DNA of 45,042 bases from Bdellovibrionales bacterium (GTDB lineage Bacteria; Bdellovibrionota; Bdellovibrionia; Bdellovibrionales; UBA1609), in the NCBI GenBank assembly GCA_007121385.1, contig SKLV01000078.1, forward strand, positions 1 to 45,042, written 5' to 3'. The notes under the pieces are model-generated. The model worked only from the letters and a program-made list of their open reading frames with translations. It did no database searches and had not been told where the DNA came from. Position 1 is the first letter of the stretch; each line of letters starts with the position of its first letter. Made by a program: the position numbers and the translations under genes. This document shows positions 14,341 through 40,167 of this stretch, piece by piece.

Positions 14341-14640
14341 GCCAATAATCCTCTCGATCGGATGGAGTGAAAATCTCTCTCTACTTTTCGTCCTCAAAAG
14401 CCCTCTGTTTTAGACTAGTTTTTATGTAAAACCAAAGCCCCCTGTGTCTCTTTGAGACCAAAGTCCCAGAACCCCAAAAAAGTACACCCCCTTACGACGC
14501 CCCACATTGAGAAAGATGATCTAAAATCCTTAAGTTCTCCCCCATCCTCTTCCGAAAAGCCTATGGCAAAAGCACAAATAGATCTCGGCCCCAAAGTGAT
14601 ATGGCCCTGATCTTTAGTGAATAGAGAAAGGGTTAACCTC
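14341..14640. other. divergent intergenic region, no gene seen
   Basis: This 300-bp region separates the MoxR operon from the RCC1-repeat gene and should hold both promoters. I see no convincing -35/-10 pair, no RNA gene and no coding sequence. A short inverted repeat, GTCTC-TTT-GAGAC, lies near 14451-14463. The long reverse-strand reading frame across the region overlaps the start of the RCC1 gene and shows no protein-like pattern. Confidence 0.5.
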
Positions 14641-17346
14641 ATGTCACGTGTCTTCACTTGGATTCTGCTGTCCATCCTTAGTTTCTCCCTTCTGTCCTGC
14701 ACTCGTAATTTCGACCAGCCCATAAGACTCCAGCTCAACTCCCAGGAGCTCAGCAAAAGCCTGCAGAATGCCACCGGAAACTCCAACTTGATGATTGGCC
14801 GAATCATGGTCAATGTGAGTGGACCGGGGATTGATCCGGTGATTTTCTGGTTCTGGGATAGGCCACGAGATGAAGATATGAATGGTGGTAAGGGTGACGA
14901 GATGAACTCCAGCGGAACCTCTGGGGACAATGGCACTCCCCCCGTTGCTCCACCTCAGGAGATTGATCTGGTGGTGCCTCGAGGTTCGGGCCGTCTGGTG
15001 CAGTTGCTGGTGGTGGCGATGGATGAAGAAACAGAGGCCATGACCTTTGCCTATGCGGACCAACTCACTGACATCAATGGTGTCACCTTGGTGGAACTGT
15101 CCCCCCAAGTGATTCCCGGCCAGGCCCTGGAGGGGGATATTGCTGGCCGCTATATCACTCACCTTGACTCCGAGGGTGTCCCTCAAGGCCCCTCAGGAGA
15201 AGTAGACATTTTCTTTCGCCCTCCACAAAACTTCTCCAGTTTGAGCACTCCAACCCCTCCCTTTCTGGTGGAGCGTTCGGCCATCTTTGGTGGCTGGTTC
15301 CGCTTTTTTGCCTTAACTGGAGGTCCTCGCCTCAGCTACCGCCTGCGCGGCCAAGACATCACTCTCTTTGAGCGCCTGGATGGAGTCTTAAATCCCGGCG
15401 GCTTTGTGGGTCTTGATGATCCCTACTTTAACCCCTCAGTGGGCACCACCAGCCGGATGCGGGTGCGCCGAGATGGGATCTATGGGGCCCGATGTTACGA
15501 CGAATCAGAATGTTATTATGAGTATCGATCTCCCTCTCGAGTGGTCTATGGCTTTTTTCTTGATGGCTCTTTGACCAATCCCCCCTCCTTGTTAGCCTGC
15601 TATCCTGGCGCTCCCGCAGAGGGAACAGTGATCGACTGGAAATACCAGTCCGATTTGCCTCCTGATTTTGTGGAGATCTCCAGCGGCGGAAACCACACCT
15701 GCGGCATCACCTCAAATGGGGAGCTTTACTGCTGGGGGCAAAACTCATGGGGCCAAATTGGTGATGGCAATATTGGAAACTTCCTACTGAGTCCGGTGCG
15801 AATCGGCGACCCGGAAATGACCTATTCACAGGTCTCGGCCGGCACCGATCACACCTGCGCCATCACCTCAGAGAACAAGCTCTATTGTTGGGGTAAAGGT
15901 GACGAGGGGCGTTTAGGTGCCGGCGATCAAAGCACCCAATATCTACCCACACCCATAGACCCGTTAACCCTCTATTCCCAAATCTCTGCGGGAGATCGCC
16001 ACACCTGTGGGATCACCACCTCTGGAGAGTTAAAATGTTGGGGCAGCCAGAGCGATGGTCGCCTAGGTAATGACTCAACGACTGGATTTCGTGGCGCCCC
16101 AACCTCCATTGATGTCGGCAATATATACTCTCAAGTTGCGGCTGGAGGATCACACACCTGTGCTTTGTCAGGTACTGGATCATTGAAGTGCTGGGGGAAA
16201 AATACTTCTGGTCAACTCGGCAATGCTCAAGCTGGGGAAACAACGGAGTTCTCTGCCAGCCCGGTGGAGGTCTCGGGAGAGGGTGAGTATATCTACGTCG
16301 CCGTTGGGGGTGAGCACAGCTGTGCTATCACTTCCGACAATGCACTTAAGTGTTGGGGTAACAATAGCAGAGGGCAAGTGGGGGATGGACAAGGTGCCGA
16401 CCCCAATACCCCTCAGCACATAGCGGCGGGTCATTTATTTGCCGGTCTTGCCTCTGGTGACGAACACAGTTGTGCTATCACATTAACTGGCGAATTGTTT
16501 TGCTGGGGAAGAGGTGAAGAAGGACAATTGGGAGCTGGTTCTGGCACTTCAGGGGAGGGGCCTGGCAATGAGACTATCCCTGCTCAAATTGGAGTCGGCT
16601 ATAGTTCCGTTACTCTTGGAGCCATGCACAGCTGTGGTCTTTCCAATGATGGACTCAAGTGCTGGGGGGGCAATAGCTCTGGGCAGTTGGGGACTGGAAG
16701 TTCAACTATCCACACTCGCTATACCCCAGACCTCTCCGGCCTCCCCCCCTTTAGGTGGCATGGAAATAACTGTAATGCAGAGGCCACTCTGGCTTGCGTG
16801 CAAGGGGGAGGCCTAGAAACTGGCTCTGATTGCACGACGGGTAGCCCTTGGGTGAATGTCATCACTCTCAACTCCCAAGGAATATCTTATGGAACTTCGA
16901 AAATGATCGGCCTTGAAGGTCCCTTTGCCTATAGAAACCAACCAGGGGGAGGCTCCGTTCTTATTGAGATTGGGGGGAGCTCCTGGCCAGAGTTTGTCAC
17001 CTGGACTTACCTTCCCGGAGTCTTTGCAGAGCCCTATGGTATTAATGGAGTGGACCTTTTTGCGAGTACCGATCGCGATTTTGATCTCTATTTTTTAAAA
17101 GATGGTGCTGGGGACTGTGATGAGTTAACCGATTTGGGCCTACAAAATATTGCTCGGGTGACTGGGCCCAATTCTGGGGGCATAGAAAATCAACAGGAGT
17201 ACCACCTGGGAACACAATTTGCTGATGAAGATTACTTAGCTGTAGTGGCCTGCCCCTTTAGGAACAAGAGCTCTGGCACAGGGGTGGACTACCTCAGCCA
17301 AGGGGCAGTTGACGGCCGCTGGGAAAAACACTTTCATGGCGAATAG
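14641..17346 (+). CDS. large lipoprotein with seven RCC1-type repeats
   Basis: The 901-residue protein begins with a lipoprotein signal (SLLSC, Cys at residue 20). An unknown N-terminal region is followed by seven RCC1/BLIP-II-like propeller blades (about residues 345-700). Each blade has an H(T/S)C...CWG pattern that puts two cysteines about 11 residues apart, suggesting a disulfide per blade. A C-terminal region of about 200 residues with more cysteines is unrecognised. Seven blades fit a complete beta-propeller. ATG 14641 is preferred over GTG 14617, which would add 8 charged residues before the signal. It is probably attached to the outer membrane or cell surface; the partner is unknown. 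Confidence 0.85.
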   Translation: MSRVFTWILLSILSFSLLSCTRNFDQPIRLQLNSQELSKSLQNATGNSNLMIGRIMVNVSGPGIDPVIFWFWDRPRDEDMNGGKGDEMNSSGTSGDNGTPPVAPPQEIDLVVPRGSGRLVQLLVVAMDEETEAMTFAYADQLTDINGVTLVELSPQVIPGQALEGDIAGRYITHLDSEGVPQGPSGEVDIFFRPPQNFSSLSTPTPPFLVERSAIFGGWFRFFALTGGPRLSYRLRGQDITLFERLDGVLNPGGFVGLDDPYFNPSVGTTSRMRVRRDGIYGARCYDESECYYEYRSPSRVVYGFFLDGSLTNPPSLLACYPGAPAEGTVIDWKYQSDLPPDFVEISSGGNHTCGITSNGELYCWGQNSWGQIGDGNIGNFLLSPVRIGDPEMTYSQVSAGTDHTCAITSENKLYCWGKGDEGRLGAGDQSTQYLPTPIDPLTLYSQISAGDRHTCGITTSGELKCWGSQSDGRLGNDSTTGFRGAPTSIDVGNIYSQVAAGGSHTCALSGTGSLKCWGKNTSGQLGNAQAGETTEFSASPVEVSGEGEYIYVAVGGEHSCAITSDNALKCWGNNSRGQVGDGQGADPNTPQHIAAGHLFAGLASGDEHSCAITLTGELFCWGRGEEGQLGAGSGTSGEGPGNETIPAQIGVGYSSVTLGAMHSCGLSNDGLKCWGGNSSGQLGTGSSTIHTRYTPDLSGLPPFRWHGNNCNAEATLACVQGGGLETGSDCTTGSPWVNVITLNSQGISYGTSKMIGLEGPFAYRNQPGGGSVLIEIGGSSWPEFVTWTYLPGVFAEPYGINGVDLFASTDRDFDLYFLKDGAGDCDELTDLGLQNIARVTGPNSGGIENQQEYHLGTQFADEDYLAVVACPFRNKSSGTGVDYLSQGAVDGRWEKHFHGE

Positions 17347-26638: not shown

Positions 26639-26826
26639 CTATGAACTCTCTTTCCCTTTATTCTGCCTTTATTCTACCTCTATTTTATCGGACCCTTAAG
26701 CCTTTTCCATAAAGACTCTCTCCCACGAGCTCAACCAAGGACCAGAGGCTGAGCCCCTTTTCCCACCTATGTCACCCCCATGTGCTTTTGAATTAAAAAT
26801 TTTCCTGAAAGTTCCGATTGATCCGA

Positions 26827-27516
26827 ATGACTCCAATAATTGGAGTGGCCCGGATCAGTTTAGACCAGGGCGATTACCCCCAGAGGGAGAATTTTCTGAT
26901 AAAGCCGGGACTTTGCAAAACTTTACTTAGACTCTGGACCTCAGGACTCTTGATCCTGCTCACCGCCTGCGCTTCAGGGTCTGAGTCCAGCTCCAGCTCA
27001 TCCATTCAAGGCTTTAATATGTCTGGAACCTGGTCCCCTTTGGCTGTGGAGTGCTTTGATGCAGACTTCACCAGCCAAACCACTTATGCCATCTTGGCTT
27101 TTTATTCTCACCCCTCCACCCTGCTCATTCAGGGCAACCACAGCTCCCTGCAAATTTCAAATAACTCATGTTTAGCAGAGAGAATCGAGGAAGTGGACTT
27201 TCAAGTGACGGAAACTCTCACCGATGGCAGCGCCACCTTGCTCCGCGGCCTTCTTCAAATGACCGGAAGACAAAGCCAGACCGACACCGGGGCAGCCTGC
27301 GAGTTCACGCAGAGCTTGACCCCTGAACCCCTTCTCCCAGAAATCTCCCCTTCCTCCTGGACCCTGAATATGAGTCCCAATGCCGAGCTCGAAGACCAGG
27401 AAATCTCCTTCTTTTACGTGGCTTCAGGGAGCATTGCCTATTTAAGCCTGGCCCTACCTCTTGAGGTTGTGGGCCGCCCCACAGACTTTTGTGTACTCAC
27501 CTACGAAAAAATTTAA
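26827..27516 (+). CDS. lipoprotein of unknown function, start uncertain
   Basis: A lipobox LLTAC at the end of WTSGLLILLTAC marks a lipoprotein, followed by a Ser-rich linker (SGSESSSSSS) and an unrecognised domain with GTWSPLAVECFDADF and four more cysteines. Starting at ATG 26827 gives a 48-residue leader with an acidic stretch, which is unusual. A GAGGGAGA site (26883-26890) stands 5 nt before a CTG (26896) and 8 nt before an ATA (26899). Either codon would give a normal signal peptide of about 24 residues, but neither is a standard start. Confidence 0.7.
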   Translation: MTPIIGVARISLDQGDYPQRENFLIKPGLCKTLLRLWTSGLLILLTACASGSESSSSSSIQGFNMSGTWSPLAVECFDADFTSQTTYAILAFYSHPSTLLIQGNHSSLQISNNSCLAERIEEVDFQVTETLTDGSATLLRGLLQMTGRQSQTDTGAACEFTQSLTPEPLLPEISPSSWTLNMSPNAELEDQEISFFYVASGSIAYLSLALPLEVVGRPTDFCVLTYEKI

Positions 27517-28148
27517 GGGGGAGTAATCAGTACCTGAACAAAGGTCTGAGGCGCTCTGAACACCGCATTGGTGGTGGGGTCAAAGTCCGTGGTCACCAGA
27601 GTCTGAGCAAAGGTCTGTGGCGCCCTAAAAGAAGCGCTGGCGGTGGGGTCAAAGTCCGTGGCCACTAGAGTCTGAGCAAAGGTCTGCGGCGCCCTGAATA
27701 CCGCACTGGTGGTGGGGTCAAAGTCCCCCTGAATTAAAGTCTGAGCAAAAGTCTGCGGCGCCCTGAATACCGCATTGGTGGTGGGGTCAAAGTCCGTCCT
27801 CACCAGACTTTGAGCAAAGGTCTGAGGAGAACGAAAGACAGCTCGGGTGGTGGGATCAAAGCCTGTCCACACCAGAGTCTGAGCAAAGGTCTGTGTGGCG
27901 CGAAAAGTGGCCTGGGCCACATGCTGCCGCCAAAATCCTAAGTTGTACTGAAATTTGGCCCGAGCGGGAGTAGGAGCCAATACTCCCCCTCCAGTCACGG
28001 CCATGATCAAGCCCATGGATCTTAAAAACTCTCGCCGACTCACTACACCTTGGAAGATTTCAGAAAACGAGGGCTCATGGGATGGGCCGGGAGTCTCTTC
28101 GGAGCCTCTTGACTCTGGCTGGGATGAGGATTTTTTAGAGGGTTTCAA
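27513..28148 (-). CDS. twin-arginine exported protein of 23-residue tandem repeats
   Basis: The 211-residue protein has a polar N-terminus, a twin-arginine signal (SRREFLRSMGLIMAVTGG, ending near PTPARA), and then five full and one partial copies of a 23-residue unit with consensus AVFRAPQTFAQTLVxTDFDP, then TTN. The units are closely similar in DNA as well, so they are recent duplications. The start is a TTG inside the end of the previous gene; a GTG at about residue 36 (SRREFL) after AAGGTG is possible. I do not know the family. Export by Tat suggests it folds before transport. Confidence 0.72.
   Translation of the reverse strand: MKPSKKSSSQPESRGSEETPGPSHEPSFSEIFQGVVSRREFLRSMGLIMAVTGGGVLAPTPARAKFQYNLGFWRQHVAQATFRATQTFAQTLVWTGFDPTTRAVFRSPQTFAQSLVRTDFDPTTNAVFRAPQTFAQTLIQGDFDPTTSAVFRAPQTFAQTLVATDFDPTASASFRAPQTFAQTLVTTDFDPTTNAVFRAPQTFVQVLITPP
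27525..27914 (-). repeat. 69-bp tandem repeat array
   Basis: The near-constant anchor CAAAGGTCTG (one copy reads CAAAAGTCTG) recurs at 27539, 27608, 27677, 27746, 27815 and 27884, an exact 69-bp period. Each period encodes one 23-residue unit. The 5'-most unit in coding order (near 27830-27900) is the most divergent. The partial last unit lies at the 3' end of the gene. Confidence 0.95.
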
Positions 28149-29184
28149 ATCCTATTTCCATGGCATTGATGGCCGCCTCATCCCAGTCTGAACCATTGGG
28201 CTGGGTGAGATAGAGCTCCTGGCTGCGGCGGTACTGCCCATTAATACACACATGGGTCGCCCCATCCACCGTGTCCCCTCCCACCTTCAGTTTGCTGCGC
28301 ACATCTCGGTGCCCAATGGTGGACTTTTGCGAGCGACCACTCAAAATCACCCCATGCACCGCCGTCGGCGTCACCGGCAAATCATGAACATTATAGAGGT
28401 CCACCTGGTTGGCCTGATCAGTGGTGACATAGGGGGAATTGGAGCCGCTATTCGTTTTACTGACAGACTGCCAGTTAGTGGCCGCCCCCACCGGCGTCAT
28501 CTGATTGGTGGTCCCATCGGCATTGGGAATCAGGGTGTAGACCAAAACCGGCCCCAAAAAGTCATTGGCCTTGGCTCCTGTATCATCACAGACATAGAGG
28601 TGATCCACATAATAGCCTGAAGAAGAAGCAGTAGCGAAATTGATATTGGGGTATCCCGCTCCGCTCAGCCCTCCTCGAGTGTCCACTCCTGCAGCCGAGG
28701 CAACCGTGGCCCCATCCACACGGATCTCTAGGGAGCCCGAACTGCCAAACTCGGCCATAACCTCCAAATGATACCAGGCACTGGCCACCACTGTATCAGC
28801 TGGGCTGGAGGTGAGAATCACCCCGCTAGTATTGTCGATAAAGGCCAGTGAGCCATCTTCATTACGATGTAGTCGGATCCCTGTGGTGGGGCTAGCTGTG
28901 GCTGTCTGATCCGTTAGGTTGAGCATCCTTAGGCTAATTGAACTTGAGCTCCAGTAGTAAAAACCCAAATAAAGTTTTGAAGTAATAGGTATTTGCAAAA
29001 TACCCCTCCACCATGATTGATAGACCAATATTCCTATGGATGTGATTCCAGGTTGAGAGCCAAAAGCGTAAGATGAGCTTGTGTAGAATCCACTAGTCAG
29101 CCACCTGGCCTCCATAGGGCTGGTCACATAAAAGGCATCCCCATAAGGGGTGCACTCAAAGCCCTCCATAAAAATCAGTGCCAT
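28135..29184 (-). CDS. phage-virion-like concanavalin A-type fold protein
   Basis: The 349 residues start MALIFMEGFECTPYGDAFYV, like the opening of many phage and gene-transfer-agent tail-associated proteins. A jelly-roll-like middle (VVASAWYHLEVMAEFGSSGS; LEIRVDGATVASA) is followed by a C-terminal domain ending WDEAAINAMEIGFETL. ATG 29184 with AAGGAGG upstream is chosen over TTG 29220. The tandem-repeat gene starts inside its last codons, so the two form an operon. No other virion, terminase or integrase genes are present. The N-terminal third is visibly more AT-rich than the rest. Confidence 0.75.
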   Translation of the reverse strand: MALIFMEGFECTPYGDAFYVTSPMEARWLTSGFYTSSSYAFGSQPGITSIGILVYQSWWRGILQIPITSKLYLGFYYWSSSSISLRMLNLTDQTATASPTTGIRLHRNEDGSLAFIDNTSGVILTSSPADTVVASAWYHLEVMAEFGSSGSLEIRVDGATVASAAGVDTRGGLSGAGYPNINFATASSSGYYVDHLYVCDDTGAKANDFLGPVLVYTLIPNADGTTNQMTPVGAATNWQSVSKTNSGSNSPYVTTDQANQVDLYNVHDLPVTPTAVHGVILSGRSQKSTIGHRDVRSKLKVGGDTVDGATHVCINGQYRRSQELYLTQPNGSDWDEAAINAMEIGFETL

Positions 29185-29900
29185 AGAGCCTCCTTGCCCC
29201 TCCCATTGTCCAGAATCCAAGGGGCGAAAGTCAAAAACCTCCCTGGCTCCCTGGACCTAAGCCCAAACTCAACTTTGCCCACCAACAGCCACCTTTCACA
29301 GCCCCCGCACTAAAGGGGCTAAGGTTAAATGACCTAGAAATCTGTACAACGCGATGCCTCTCCGACAGAGTGGATTGGACAAGCATATAATGGGGTATAG
29401 ATAAGTGCCGAGCCCCTTGAACTCCAGATCCATGAAGCAAAGCCCCTTTTTGGGTTTAAAGCCCACAGAATCTTTCCCACTCTTTAAGCCCTGGAGGTCT
29501 AGTTGCCTAAACCACTGTCAGGTGAACGAGCTGGGCCGCAATTAAAATCAACTTGTGCAGAACCAAAAGGATCCACAGCTGGACTCTAAAGAGCTCCCAA
29601 CTTCGCCGATAGGAACCACATCGTTGGTAGTTCATACCGCCCCCCTTTCTCTTGGAAGGGGTGGCCTTTCCTTTAGCCCTCAAGGGGCCCGGCACCCTCC
29701 TCCACTGCAAAAGGGACCAACTCCTCAAAGGCAAAACAATCAGCTGCTTAAGTTTTTTAAGACCGCCTCTCGGACATCAATCGATCTCTCAAACCAAGAT
29801 CTCTGGTATAAAGTGTAAACCATGTCTCCGGTACGGACCGGGTCTCTGGGACAGTTATTGACGCGGTGATACGCAAAAATATGACGGGCACTTTTGAAAA
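29185..29900. other. gene-poor region between the phage-like cassette and tRNA-Pro
   Basis: I see no substantial gene in these 716 bp; the short reading frames on both strands lack protein-like patterns apart from one 42-codon candidate listed separately. A 6-bp inverted repeat, AGCCCC/GGGGCT, lies at 29300-29320 with no T-tract. No copy of the tRNA 3' end, and so no integration repeat, is recognisable. Confidence 0.5.
29507..29635 (-). CDS. possible 42-residue small membrane protein
   Basis: ATG at 29635 follows AAGGGGGG at 4 nt spacing. The product has a basic N-terminus (MNYQRCGSYRRSWELFR) and one long hydrophobic helix (LWILLVLHKLILIAAQLVHL). That layout is typical of small single-pass membrane proteins, but the evidence is only a ribosome binding site and hydropathy; a chance frame is quite possible. 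Confidence 0.25.
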   Translation of the reverse strand: MNYQRCGSYRRSWELFRVQLWILLVLHKLILIAAQLVHLTVV

Positions 29901-29977
29901 TGGTCGGCGCGACTGGATTTGAACCAGCGACCTTTTGCACCCCAAGCAAATGCGCTACCAGGCTGCGCCACGCGCCG
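29901..29977 (-). tRNA. tRNA-Pro (anticodon GGG)
   Basis: The reverse strand folds as a full cloverleaf. Acceptor stem CGGCGCG/CGCGCCG carries the C1-G72 pair typical of bacterial tRNA-Pro. The D arm is GCGC...GCGC. The anticodon stem TTTGC/GCAAA has loop TTGGGGT, giving anticodon GGG for CCC/CCU codons. The T arm has loop TTCAAAT, and CCA is encoded. It ends the pheST-ihfA-merR cluster, the same relative place as in many proteobacteria. Confidence 0.96.
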
Positions 29978-38423: not shown

Positions 38424-39006
38424 ATTTTGTTACCCCTTATCTTAATTTGATGGCTCTTAAGGAGCCTCAGCTGCGGAGAAGCTTAAACTCCCACCCGAAC
38501 ACTTCCGCAAGAGTTATGCCCATATTAATGCTTTGGGTCAATGATCAATCTTTCAAAGTGCCTGTAATTATTGCAATCTCCCTCTGACAGTAGGCTAAAA
38601 ATCCCATTTTTCGCCTATTGCGCCCTATTGCGCCCCAGGAGCCTCAACCAGGACAGAGGCTCTCCCGCCTGAGACTCTTTGCGCACCACCCGCTCACTGG
38701 CCGATGAGGGATGAGGGAAATTCGCCCTGAAAACAGAATTATGTCCAGGTAAATTATGTTTATTTTTACGCTATCTTTTGCCCGAGTATTCCATTTTTTC
38801 TTGACGCCCTTTTCGACTCTCTAAAATCCTCTCTGTTGAACTTTTCGCCCTCTTTGATTGTGAAAAAGAGATTTCCCCTAAAAAGACCCCAGCGTGGAGG
38901 CTCTAAGAAGCTCACCAAGGCTAAGAAGCAGGCATTCCGGTTCGACCAAAAAAGGCACTTTGAAAACCCATGTTATGGTTCCTCCAACTCAAGAAAAAGG
39001 AGGCCC
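38424..39006. other. intergenic region without a clear gene
   Basis: These 583 bp hold the divergent promoters of the barrel gene and the HNH gene. I see a tandem 10-bp repeat, CTATTGCGCC twice (38615-38634), and a possible promoter TTGACG (38801-38806) with TAAAAT (38822-38827) whose 15-bp spacing is too short to be convincing. The reading frame that extends the HNH gene upstream to 38836 is basic, has no ribosome binding site and is probably non-coding. Confidence 0.5.
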
Positions 39007-40167
39007 ATGAAACTGCAAAGTCTTAGCGATCGGCAATTGCTTCAGCAAACTCAGCAACTGGTACAAAAAGAAAGAGAGATTCTCAGTGAAATTCTGCAGC
39101 ACCTCAAAGAGGTGGAAAGACGCAAGCTCTATTCGGACTTGGACTACAGCAGTTTGTTTGAGTATTGTCTCAGAGAGCTGAAATACTCCGAAGCTCAGGC
39201 CGGCCGCCGCCTTCAAGCCCTCAAACTGATTCGCGAGCTGCCCCAGGTGGAGGAGCAAATTGCCAGCGGCGCTTTGAATTTGACTCACATCTGCCAGGCG
39301 CAAAGTTTTTTTAAACACCTGCAAAAGGCTGGGGGAAAGGGTTTCTGCAAGGACGAGAGTAATGACCCAGGCCAGAGCGCCTTGAGCAAAGAGGCCAAAC
39401 TGCAAGTGCTCAATGAAATGGCCAATAAGTCCTCCCGGGAGGCCCAGGCCCTTTTAGTGGCTAAGACAGCCCAGGCGGGACTCAGCCCTCAATTGCCCCC
39501 GGAAAGAGAACGAGTCCTCAGCGAAGAGTATTGCGAAGTGCGTCTGATTCTGAATCAGGAGTTGCGCCAGCGGCTGGAAGAAGTGAAGAGCCTTTTGGGC
39601 CCCAAGGCCTTGGGCATGAGTCTGGCTGAACTGATCGGAGTTATGGCCGAACTCAGCCTTGAGTCCCTTCGGGATAAAAAGTTTGGCAAAAGAAGATCTG
39701 GAACTAGAGAGAGTAGGGCCAGATCTGGTGATGTGGAGTCCAATAGGACAGAAAATCCCACGGCGCCGGAGAAGCTTTGCGTAAAATTTGGGGTAGATCA
39801 AAAGCCACAGTCGAGGGCAAAAGTGAAGTTGGAATCACAATCACAGCTGAGATCGCCATCGCAGGTGGGGTCACAATCACATTTGAAAGCCCAATCGCAA
39901 CCAACTGGTGAATTTCTGGCTGACTTGCCTCCACAGAAAAAGAAACCGCGGTCTATTTCAAAGAGCCAGAAATGGAAGATTTGGCAGAGAGATGAGGGCC
40001 GCTGTGAGCAGTGTGGAAGTCACAAAAATCTACAAGTGGATCATCAAATGCCGGTGGCTTTGGGTGGGAGGGCAGATCTGGAAAATTTGAGGCTTCTCTG
40101 TGGCAACTGCAATATGCGTCAGGGAATCAAGAGTTTTGGTCTGGGGAGAATGAGACGATCTATCTAG
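39007..40167 (+). CDS. HNH endonuclease family protein
   Basis: The 386-residue protein has a helical N-terminal domain (LQHLKEVERRKLYSDLDYSS; KYSEAQAGRRLQALKLIREL), a Ser/Gln-rich linker (LESQSQLRSPSQVGSQSH) and a C-terminal HNH motif: CEQCGSHKNLQVDHQMPVAL, then ENLRLLCGNCNMRQG, with four zinc-binding-type cysteines and the catalytic His. AAGGAGG precedes the ATG by 3 nt. The linker contains a 77-bp segment that is duplicated downstream. The family is multi-copy in predatory and related bacteria as far as I recall; its biological role is not known to me. Confidence 0.88.
   Translation: MKLQSLSDRQLLQQTQQLVQKEREILSEILQHLKEVERRKLYSDLDYSSLFEYCLRELKYSEAQAGRRLQALKLIRELPQVEEQIASGALNLTHICQAQSFFKHLQKAGGKGFCKDESNDPGQSALSKEAKLQVLNEMANKSSREAQALLVAKTAQAGLSPQLPPERERVLSEEYCEVRLILNQELRQRLEEVKSLLGPKALGMSLAELIGVMAELSLESLRDKKFGKRRSGTRESRARSGDVESNRTENPTAPEKLCVKFGVDQKPQSRAKVKLESQSQLRSPSQVGSQSHLKAQSQPTGEFLADLPPQKKKPRSISKSQKWKIWQRDEGRCEQCGSHKNLQVDHQMPVALGGRADLENLRLLCGNCNMRQGIKSFGLGRMRRSI
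39688..39764 (+). repeat. 77-bp direct repeat, copy 1 (inside the HNH gene)
   Basis: Identical over 77 bp to 40222-40298, exactly 534 bp away. Copy 1 encodes part of the linker of the HNH protein. It contains an 8-bp inverted repeat (AGATCTGG and CCAGATCT, 17 bp apart). Confidence 0.95.

Follow-up and report, generated by a model that had tools for sequence, protein, structure and literature searches.

Among the chromosomal genes of a Bdellovibrionales bacterium is one that encodes a small protein made largely of tandem repeats and equipped with a signal for export by the twin-arginine (Tat) route. What is such a protein for, and where did it come from? The DNA analysed here (called the window throughout) is a stretch of 45,042 nucleotides. 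The original prediction described the protein as belonging to no known family, and it missed a partner gene, two other complete pairs of genes in the same genome, and the phage origin of the pair. We put at about even the chance that the repeat gene and its partner are a phage tail-appendage pair made cellular, in which the repeat protein would act as a Tat carrier for a lectin-like partner that has no signal of its own, the two being exported together and perhaps serving in adhesion. The features of the repeat gene are as follows.

27513 to 28148, minus strand: gene for the repeat protein, 211 amino acids, an intact open reading frame with its stop codon at 27513-27515.
27957 to 28148, minus strand: Tat-type signal region, residues 1-64, judged by SRREFLR, a hydrophobic stretch and an ARA cleavage site.
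28020 to 28040, minus strand: twin-arginine motif SRREFLR, residues 37-43, seen in the sequence and recurring in paralogues.
27927 to 27956, minus strand: mature N-terminal motif KFQYNLGFWR, residues 65-74, which reads KVQYNIGFWR in both complete paralogues.
27561 to 27905, minus strand: five full 23-residue units with the core RAPQTFAQTL, from unit comparison and TRF.
27516 to 27560, minus strand: sixth unit, partial, 15 residues, FRAPQTFVQVLITPP, from unit comparison.

The gene starts with TTG, overlapping the end of its partner by 14 bp, and has an alternative start at a GTG immediately ahead of SRREFL. The protein begins with a long hydrophilic N-terminus, passes through SRREFLR, a hydrophobic stretch and ARA followed by K at the cleavage site, and continues with KFQYNLGFWR and then the units. 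These features, their recurrence in the paralogues and the presence in the genome of a gene encoding TatC (E=2.3e-72) bear out the Tat signal that had been proposed. Judged by motif, by conservation and by TatC, the assignment of the protein as a Tat substrate is sound, export itself being a prediction.

The count of five full units and one partial, with a period of exactly 23 amino acids or 69 bp, stands. The units start at residues 82, 105, 128, 151, 174, and 197, and the array was recovered independently by TRF (27534-27893, period 69, score 408). To call the units near-identical was an overstatement, since they share 68-86% of their DNA sequence and 74-87% of their protein sequence, which makes them similar. 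The DFDPTT ending was overstated as well, since unit 1 has GFDPTT and unit 4 has DFDPTA. The differences fall mostly at third codon positions, and this bias, together with the level of DNA identity, makes the repeats of the window look like sequences kept for their protein and not like fresh copies. The recent expansion that had been read from them is therefore weakly supported in the window; to judge from DNA identity, it appears better supported for a paralogue on another contig (C35, described below), whose units are 85-100% identical.

Searches for a family gave little. The repeat protein had no significant match to a characterised family or structure in Pfam, NCBIfam, PHROGs, PADLOC, or PDB sequence searches (nothing below E=0.2 in PHROGs). 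Predicting its structure, a step that the original prediction had suggested, was possible from the single sequence, which gave a fold of low confidence (pLDDT 53) and, in a structural search, no significant match. Its neighbour is more informative.

28135 to 29184, minus strand: partner gene, 349 amino acids, beginning MALIFMEGFE, a member of phrog_2448 with a predicted jelly-roll fold and no signal peptide.
29189 to 29195, minus strand: Shine-Dalgarno sequence AAGGAGG, seen in the sequence 4 nt ahead of the ATG of the partner gene.

The position of the Shine-Dalgarno sequence supports a start that leaves no room for a signal peptide, and this start is identical in form to that of the partner's phage relatives. 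A profile match over nearly the entire length of the partner places it in phrog_2448, an uncharacterised phage family (E=5.7e-35, residues 2-348 on positions 1-333 of a profile of 335). Relatives were found in 165 phage records, many of them from Chi-like phages, and these lie in the tail gene region, with genes for tail tip or tail fibre on one side and lysis genes on the other. The partner thus resembles the phage proteins (e.g., Enc34 ORF35 and those of Brevundimonas and Mesorhizobium phages) in full-length homology and in fold. It differs from them in being chromosomal, present in several copies, outside any tail gene cluster, and paired with a gene that carries a Tat signal. One huge phage, LR756511.1 (L010:4709-7389), has two partner-family genes near each other and an adjoining gene, on the opposite strand, for RVTQ repeats of the kind taken up below.

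A model of the partner built from 32 sequences (pLDDT 82) has a jelly-roll (ConA-like) fold. Its best match among viral proteins scored TM 0.83/0.81, and one of the viral matches carries the annotation virion structural protein and comes from phage AchV4, for which LC-MS/MS detected the proteins of the virion (PMC7996906). Compared with solved structures, the model resembles jelly-roll proteins that bind or cleave sugars, at low TM. The fold suggests that the partner is lectin-like and binds glycans or another surface ligand. Among the matches are receptor-binding domains of clostridial neurotoxins, but these have TM of only about 0.3 and stand beside matches to lyases and calreticulin; they show a generic jelly-roll likeness and do not point to a toxin.

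The pair recurs within the genome. Two further complete pairs lie on contigs C35 and C106, and in all three the partner gene comes first and overlaps the repeat gene by 4-14 bp. The three repeat proteins all have a Tat-type signal and K[VF]QYN[IL]GFWR. What varies is the unit: RAPQTFAQTL in the window (23 amino acids), RVTQAYGSVL in C35 (20 amino acids), and R/S..Q.FAQAL in C106. The core common to the three is R1-Q4-L10 (RxxQ[..]L), with R1 missing from some C106 units. Such divergence between copies could vary the number of partners bound or the manner of binding. At the end of contig C106 (L014:7708-8025), in tandem with the complete pair, is part of a fourth repeat gene, cut off by the end of the contig. 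The 60-bp array of the C35 paralogue (L015:5467-6174) generates long open frames, up to 235 amino acids, on both strands and in several frames, and these can mislead gene callers.

It is through the paralogues that the repeat protein can be connected to phages. Loci with the partner gene were collected from phages, 63 by a scan of viral contigs with an alignment of partner sequences and 3 from genome loci. Of these 66, 23 encode also an ORF with at least three units resembling RVTQxxVEVL, while shuffled ORFs gave none, and the repeat ORF is mostly 0-30 bp from the partner gene. Several of the phage repeat proteins match phrog_13560, and in two phage proteins the RVTQ repeats are fused to ConA-like Laminin_G_3 domains. 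When a profile of 98 phage RVTQ units was run against 1019 ORFs, it found the C35 paralogue, with seven units, at E=1.4e-8 (a value inflated by identical copies), and nothing else below E=1; the window protein was not returned. Likeness of the units to the phage core, measured against shuffled units, was strongest for C35 (P=0.00005) and lesser for the window (P=0.01) and C106 (P=0.04). Given the P value of the window unit taken by itself, its membership among the RVTQ repeats depends chiefly on paralogy and the partner.

Other approaches to the same link returned nothing: a tblastn search of phages with the C35 repeat protein gave no match, a scan of viral contigs with an alignment of the Tat-repeat proteins found no relative, and neither the C35 paralogue nor a second repeat protein from another family of the phylum (see below) matched phrog_13560 at E<=0.1. 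A literature search on ARVTQ together with tail fiber found no paper. On sequence grounds, the homology of the pair to phage proteins is firm, and it is weaker for the repeats of the window, which are linked to RVTQ repeats (phrog_13560) by way of paralogues and not by direct match. The description of the protein as of unknown family survives insofar as no family matches it directly, but not altogether, because its paralogues tie it to phage RVTQ repeats found beside the same partner gene. The bacterial and phage repeat proteins both have short units in tandem that align at R1, Q4, and L10, and both are encoded next to a phrog_2448 gene. The phage versions have neither a Tat signal nor the QYN[IL]GFWR segment, and the window's unit stands apart from theirs in its 23 amino acids and its FDPTT.

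How widespread is the Tat-tagged form? Scans covered the phylum of the window, and other phyla were reached only by contig scans, which pick up close relatives. Among 369 genomes of the phylum, such relatives of the repeat protein were confined to the window's genome, and a Tat-tagged pair was confirmed in only two of the 369. The second case (G349) belongs to another family. It encodes a full-length partner (E=9e-69), and 21 bp upstream is a gene for a protein with a Tat-type signal (ELSRRNFLKWVTAFPALVANAQ), three RTTQ/RVTQ units, with RVTQ verbatim, and a segment FHRFGSFW that recalls QYNIGFW. The order is reversed relative to the window, the repeat gene preceding the partner. No ORF in the phage loci searched combines a Tat signal with RVTQ units, and this, together with the independent pair in G349, favours reading the Tat-tagged pair as a cellular variant over a chance event in a single genome. 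Convergent to the pair in G349 is a gene (L090:11673-13952) for a fibre-like protein with collagen repeats. A match in another genome of the phylum (G034, E=6e-5) looked unrelated, its stretch containing neither repeats nor a partner gene, and partial matches in G047, G176, and G204 look like other ConA-like proteins.

The chromosomal setting bears on whether the pair is a working unit of the cell or something left behind. The window's copy lies between two features that are not part of it.

29901 to 29977, minus strand: tRNA-Pro (GGG), one border of a variable site.
26818 to 27516, plus strand: conserved convergent lipoprotein-like gene, the other border, 37% identical to the corresponding gene of a congener.

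The end of the lipoprotein-like gene overlaps the stop of the repeat gene by 4 bp. In a congener (G001, same genus), the space between tRNA-Pro and the lipoprotein-like gene is occupied by an AbiEi/AbiEii pair (L094:5201-6680); by this comparison of sequences, the site is evidently a variable one for accessory genes. Nor is there a pair in the congener beside pepN (the C35 site) or the HD-GYP gene (the C106 site). Since the pair is missing there from all three corresponding sites, it is accessory. The genes surrounding the copies are chromosomal and housekeeping (e.g., pheT, pheS, IHF, and mutS; recG; pepN).

Perhaps the pairs are remnants of prophages, tail genes without a cellular role that were scattered by past integrations. 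Both genes have phage relatives, the pair is missing from all three sites in the congener, and the window copy adjoins a tRNA gene, tRNA genes being common integration sites. Yet a remnant is an unlikely explanation where no fewer than three pairs are intact, their frames overlap, and their repeat proteins all carry a Tat signal and share the mature motif. On the three contigs no other phage genes were recognised near the pairs: reading the ORFs around the window, C35, and C106 copies revealed no integrase, head, terminase, or lysis gene. Also, the Tat-tagged version appears in no phage locus examined, while an independent Tat-tagged pair occurs in a different family.

The presence in the congener of AbiEi/AbiEii, a type IV toxin-antitoxin defence system, at the same chromosomal site raises the thought that the pair might itself defend against phages, a phage-type receptor-binding protein displayed on the surface blocking the receptors needed by incoming phages, in the manner of superinfection exclusion. 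A phage origin and an accessory distribution would fit such a role. One shared site is weak evidence, however; no recognised defence genes adjoin the other two copies, and PADLOC matched neither protein of the pair nor the C35 paralogue. We consider defence improbable.

The remaining consideration is whether the two proteins act together. The partner lacks a signal peptide and begins exactly as its phage relatives do, as might be expected if it were simply transcribed with the repeat gene and acted separately in the cytoplasm, the repeat protein being exported through Tat as a structural or surface protein in its own right. Against this stand the gene overlap seen in each of the three complete pairs, the retention of the neighbourhood in phages and, in reversed order, in a distant family, and the phage proteins in which RVTQ repeats and ConA-like domains are joined. 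Separate action is improbable.

Carriage of the partner by the repeat protein would proceed as follows. The repeat protein would be a bacterial version of the RVTQ protein of phages, one that acquired a Tat signal and the conserved QYN[IL]GFWR segment. The two proteins would be translated together, and the partner would bind the repeat protein in the cytoplasm. The folded complex would then leave by way of Tat, with the signal of the repeat protein serving both (hitchhiker export). Once the complex is outside the cytoplasm, its repeats may provide scaffolding or tethering and its partner subunit may bind a glycan or other surface ligand, as an adhesin. The purpose of the arrangement is probably to place a virus-type sugar-binding protein outside the cytoplasm. 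That the repeat protein has a signal and its co-translated partner lacks one fits the hitchhiker mechanism. Tat is known to export folded complexes on the signal of a single subunit, an established route (PMC4273604, PMC10924467). The example of PaoABC is similar in that one subunit has a twin-arginine signal and its partner has none (PMC4273604); PaoABC is an aldehyde oxidoreductase, whereas the partner in the window is a lectin-like protein of phage type whose co-export is a proposal. Use of Tat had been thought to imply folding or a cofactor bound inside the cell. Folding, or a folded partner, is sufficient, and a cofactor is unnecessary to the explanation. More tentatively, and with somewhat less than even confidence, the whole may be described as a phage tail-appendage pair turned into an exported surface or periplasmic system, with a Tat-signalled repeat scaffold and a folded virion-type lectin hitchhiking out.

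There is a parallel in the mosaic adhesive trimer (MAT) fibres of Bdellovibrio bacteriovorus, a multi-member family resembling phage tail fibres that serves in surface recognition (PMC10769870). The analogy extends to phage-tail-like proteins with several members in one bacterium, surface recognition by the pair being proposed. MAT proteins are nonetheless a different family. They are long trimeric fibres of beta-helix and beta-prism, many with an S74 domain, and have a conserved domain of about 130 amino acids after the signal peptide (PMC10769870); none of these is found in the pair, and the repeat protein has 211 amino acids, short repeats, and no significant Pfam domain.

What makes the pair of interest is that phrog_2448 and the RVTQ repeats, two uncharacterised phage families found in each other's company, occur here outside the virion, in a small bacterial unit predicted to be exported, and a unit of two genes renders their binding and function testable. 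If Tat hitchhiking is true, it would provide a route for the export of folded phage-type proteins that requires no signal on the cargo, and it would add to the evidence that bacteria reuse parts of phage tails in surface recognition.

Elsewhere in the window are two ORFs that merit mention. One (14617-17346) is large and lipoprotein-like, with several RCC1-like repeats (recurring CAIT...CWG...GQLG). The other (38836-40167) encodes an HNH-type nuclease, with weak matches to models of a restriction enzyme and PtuB.
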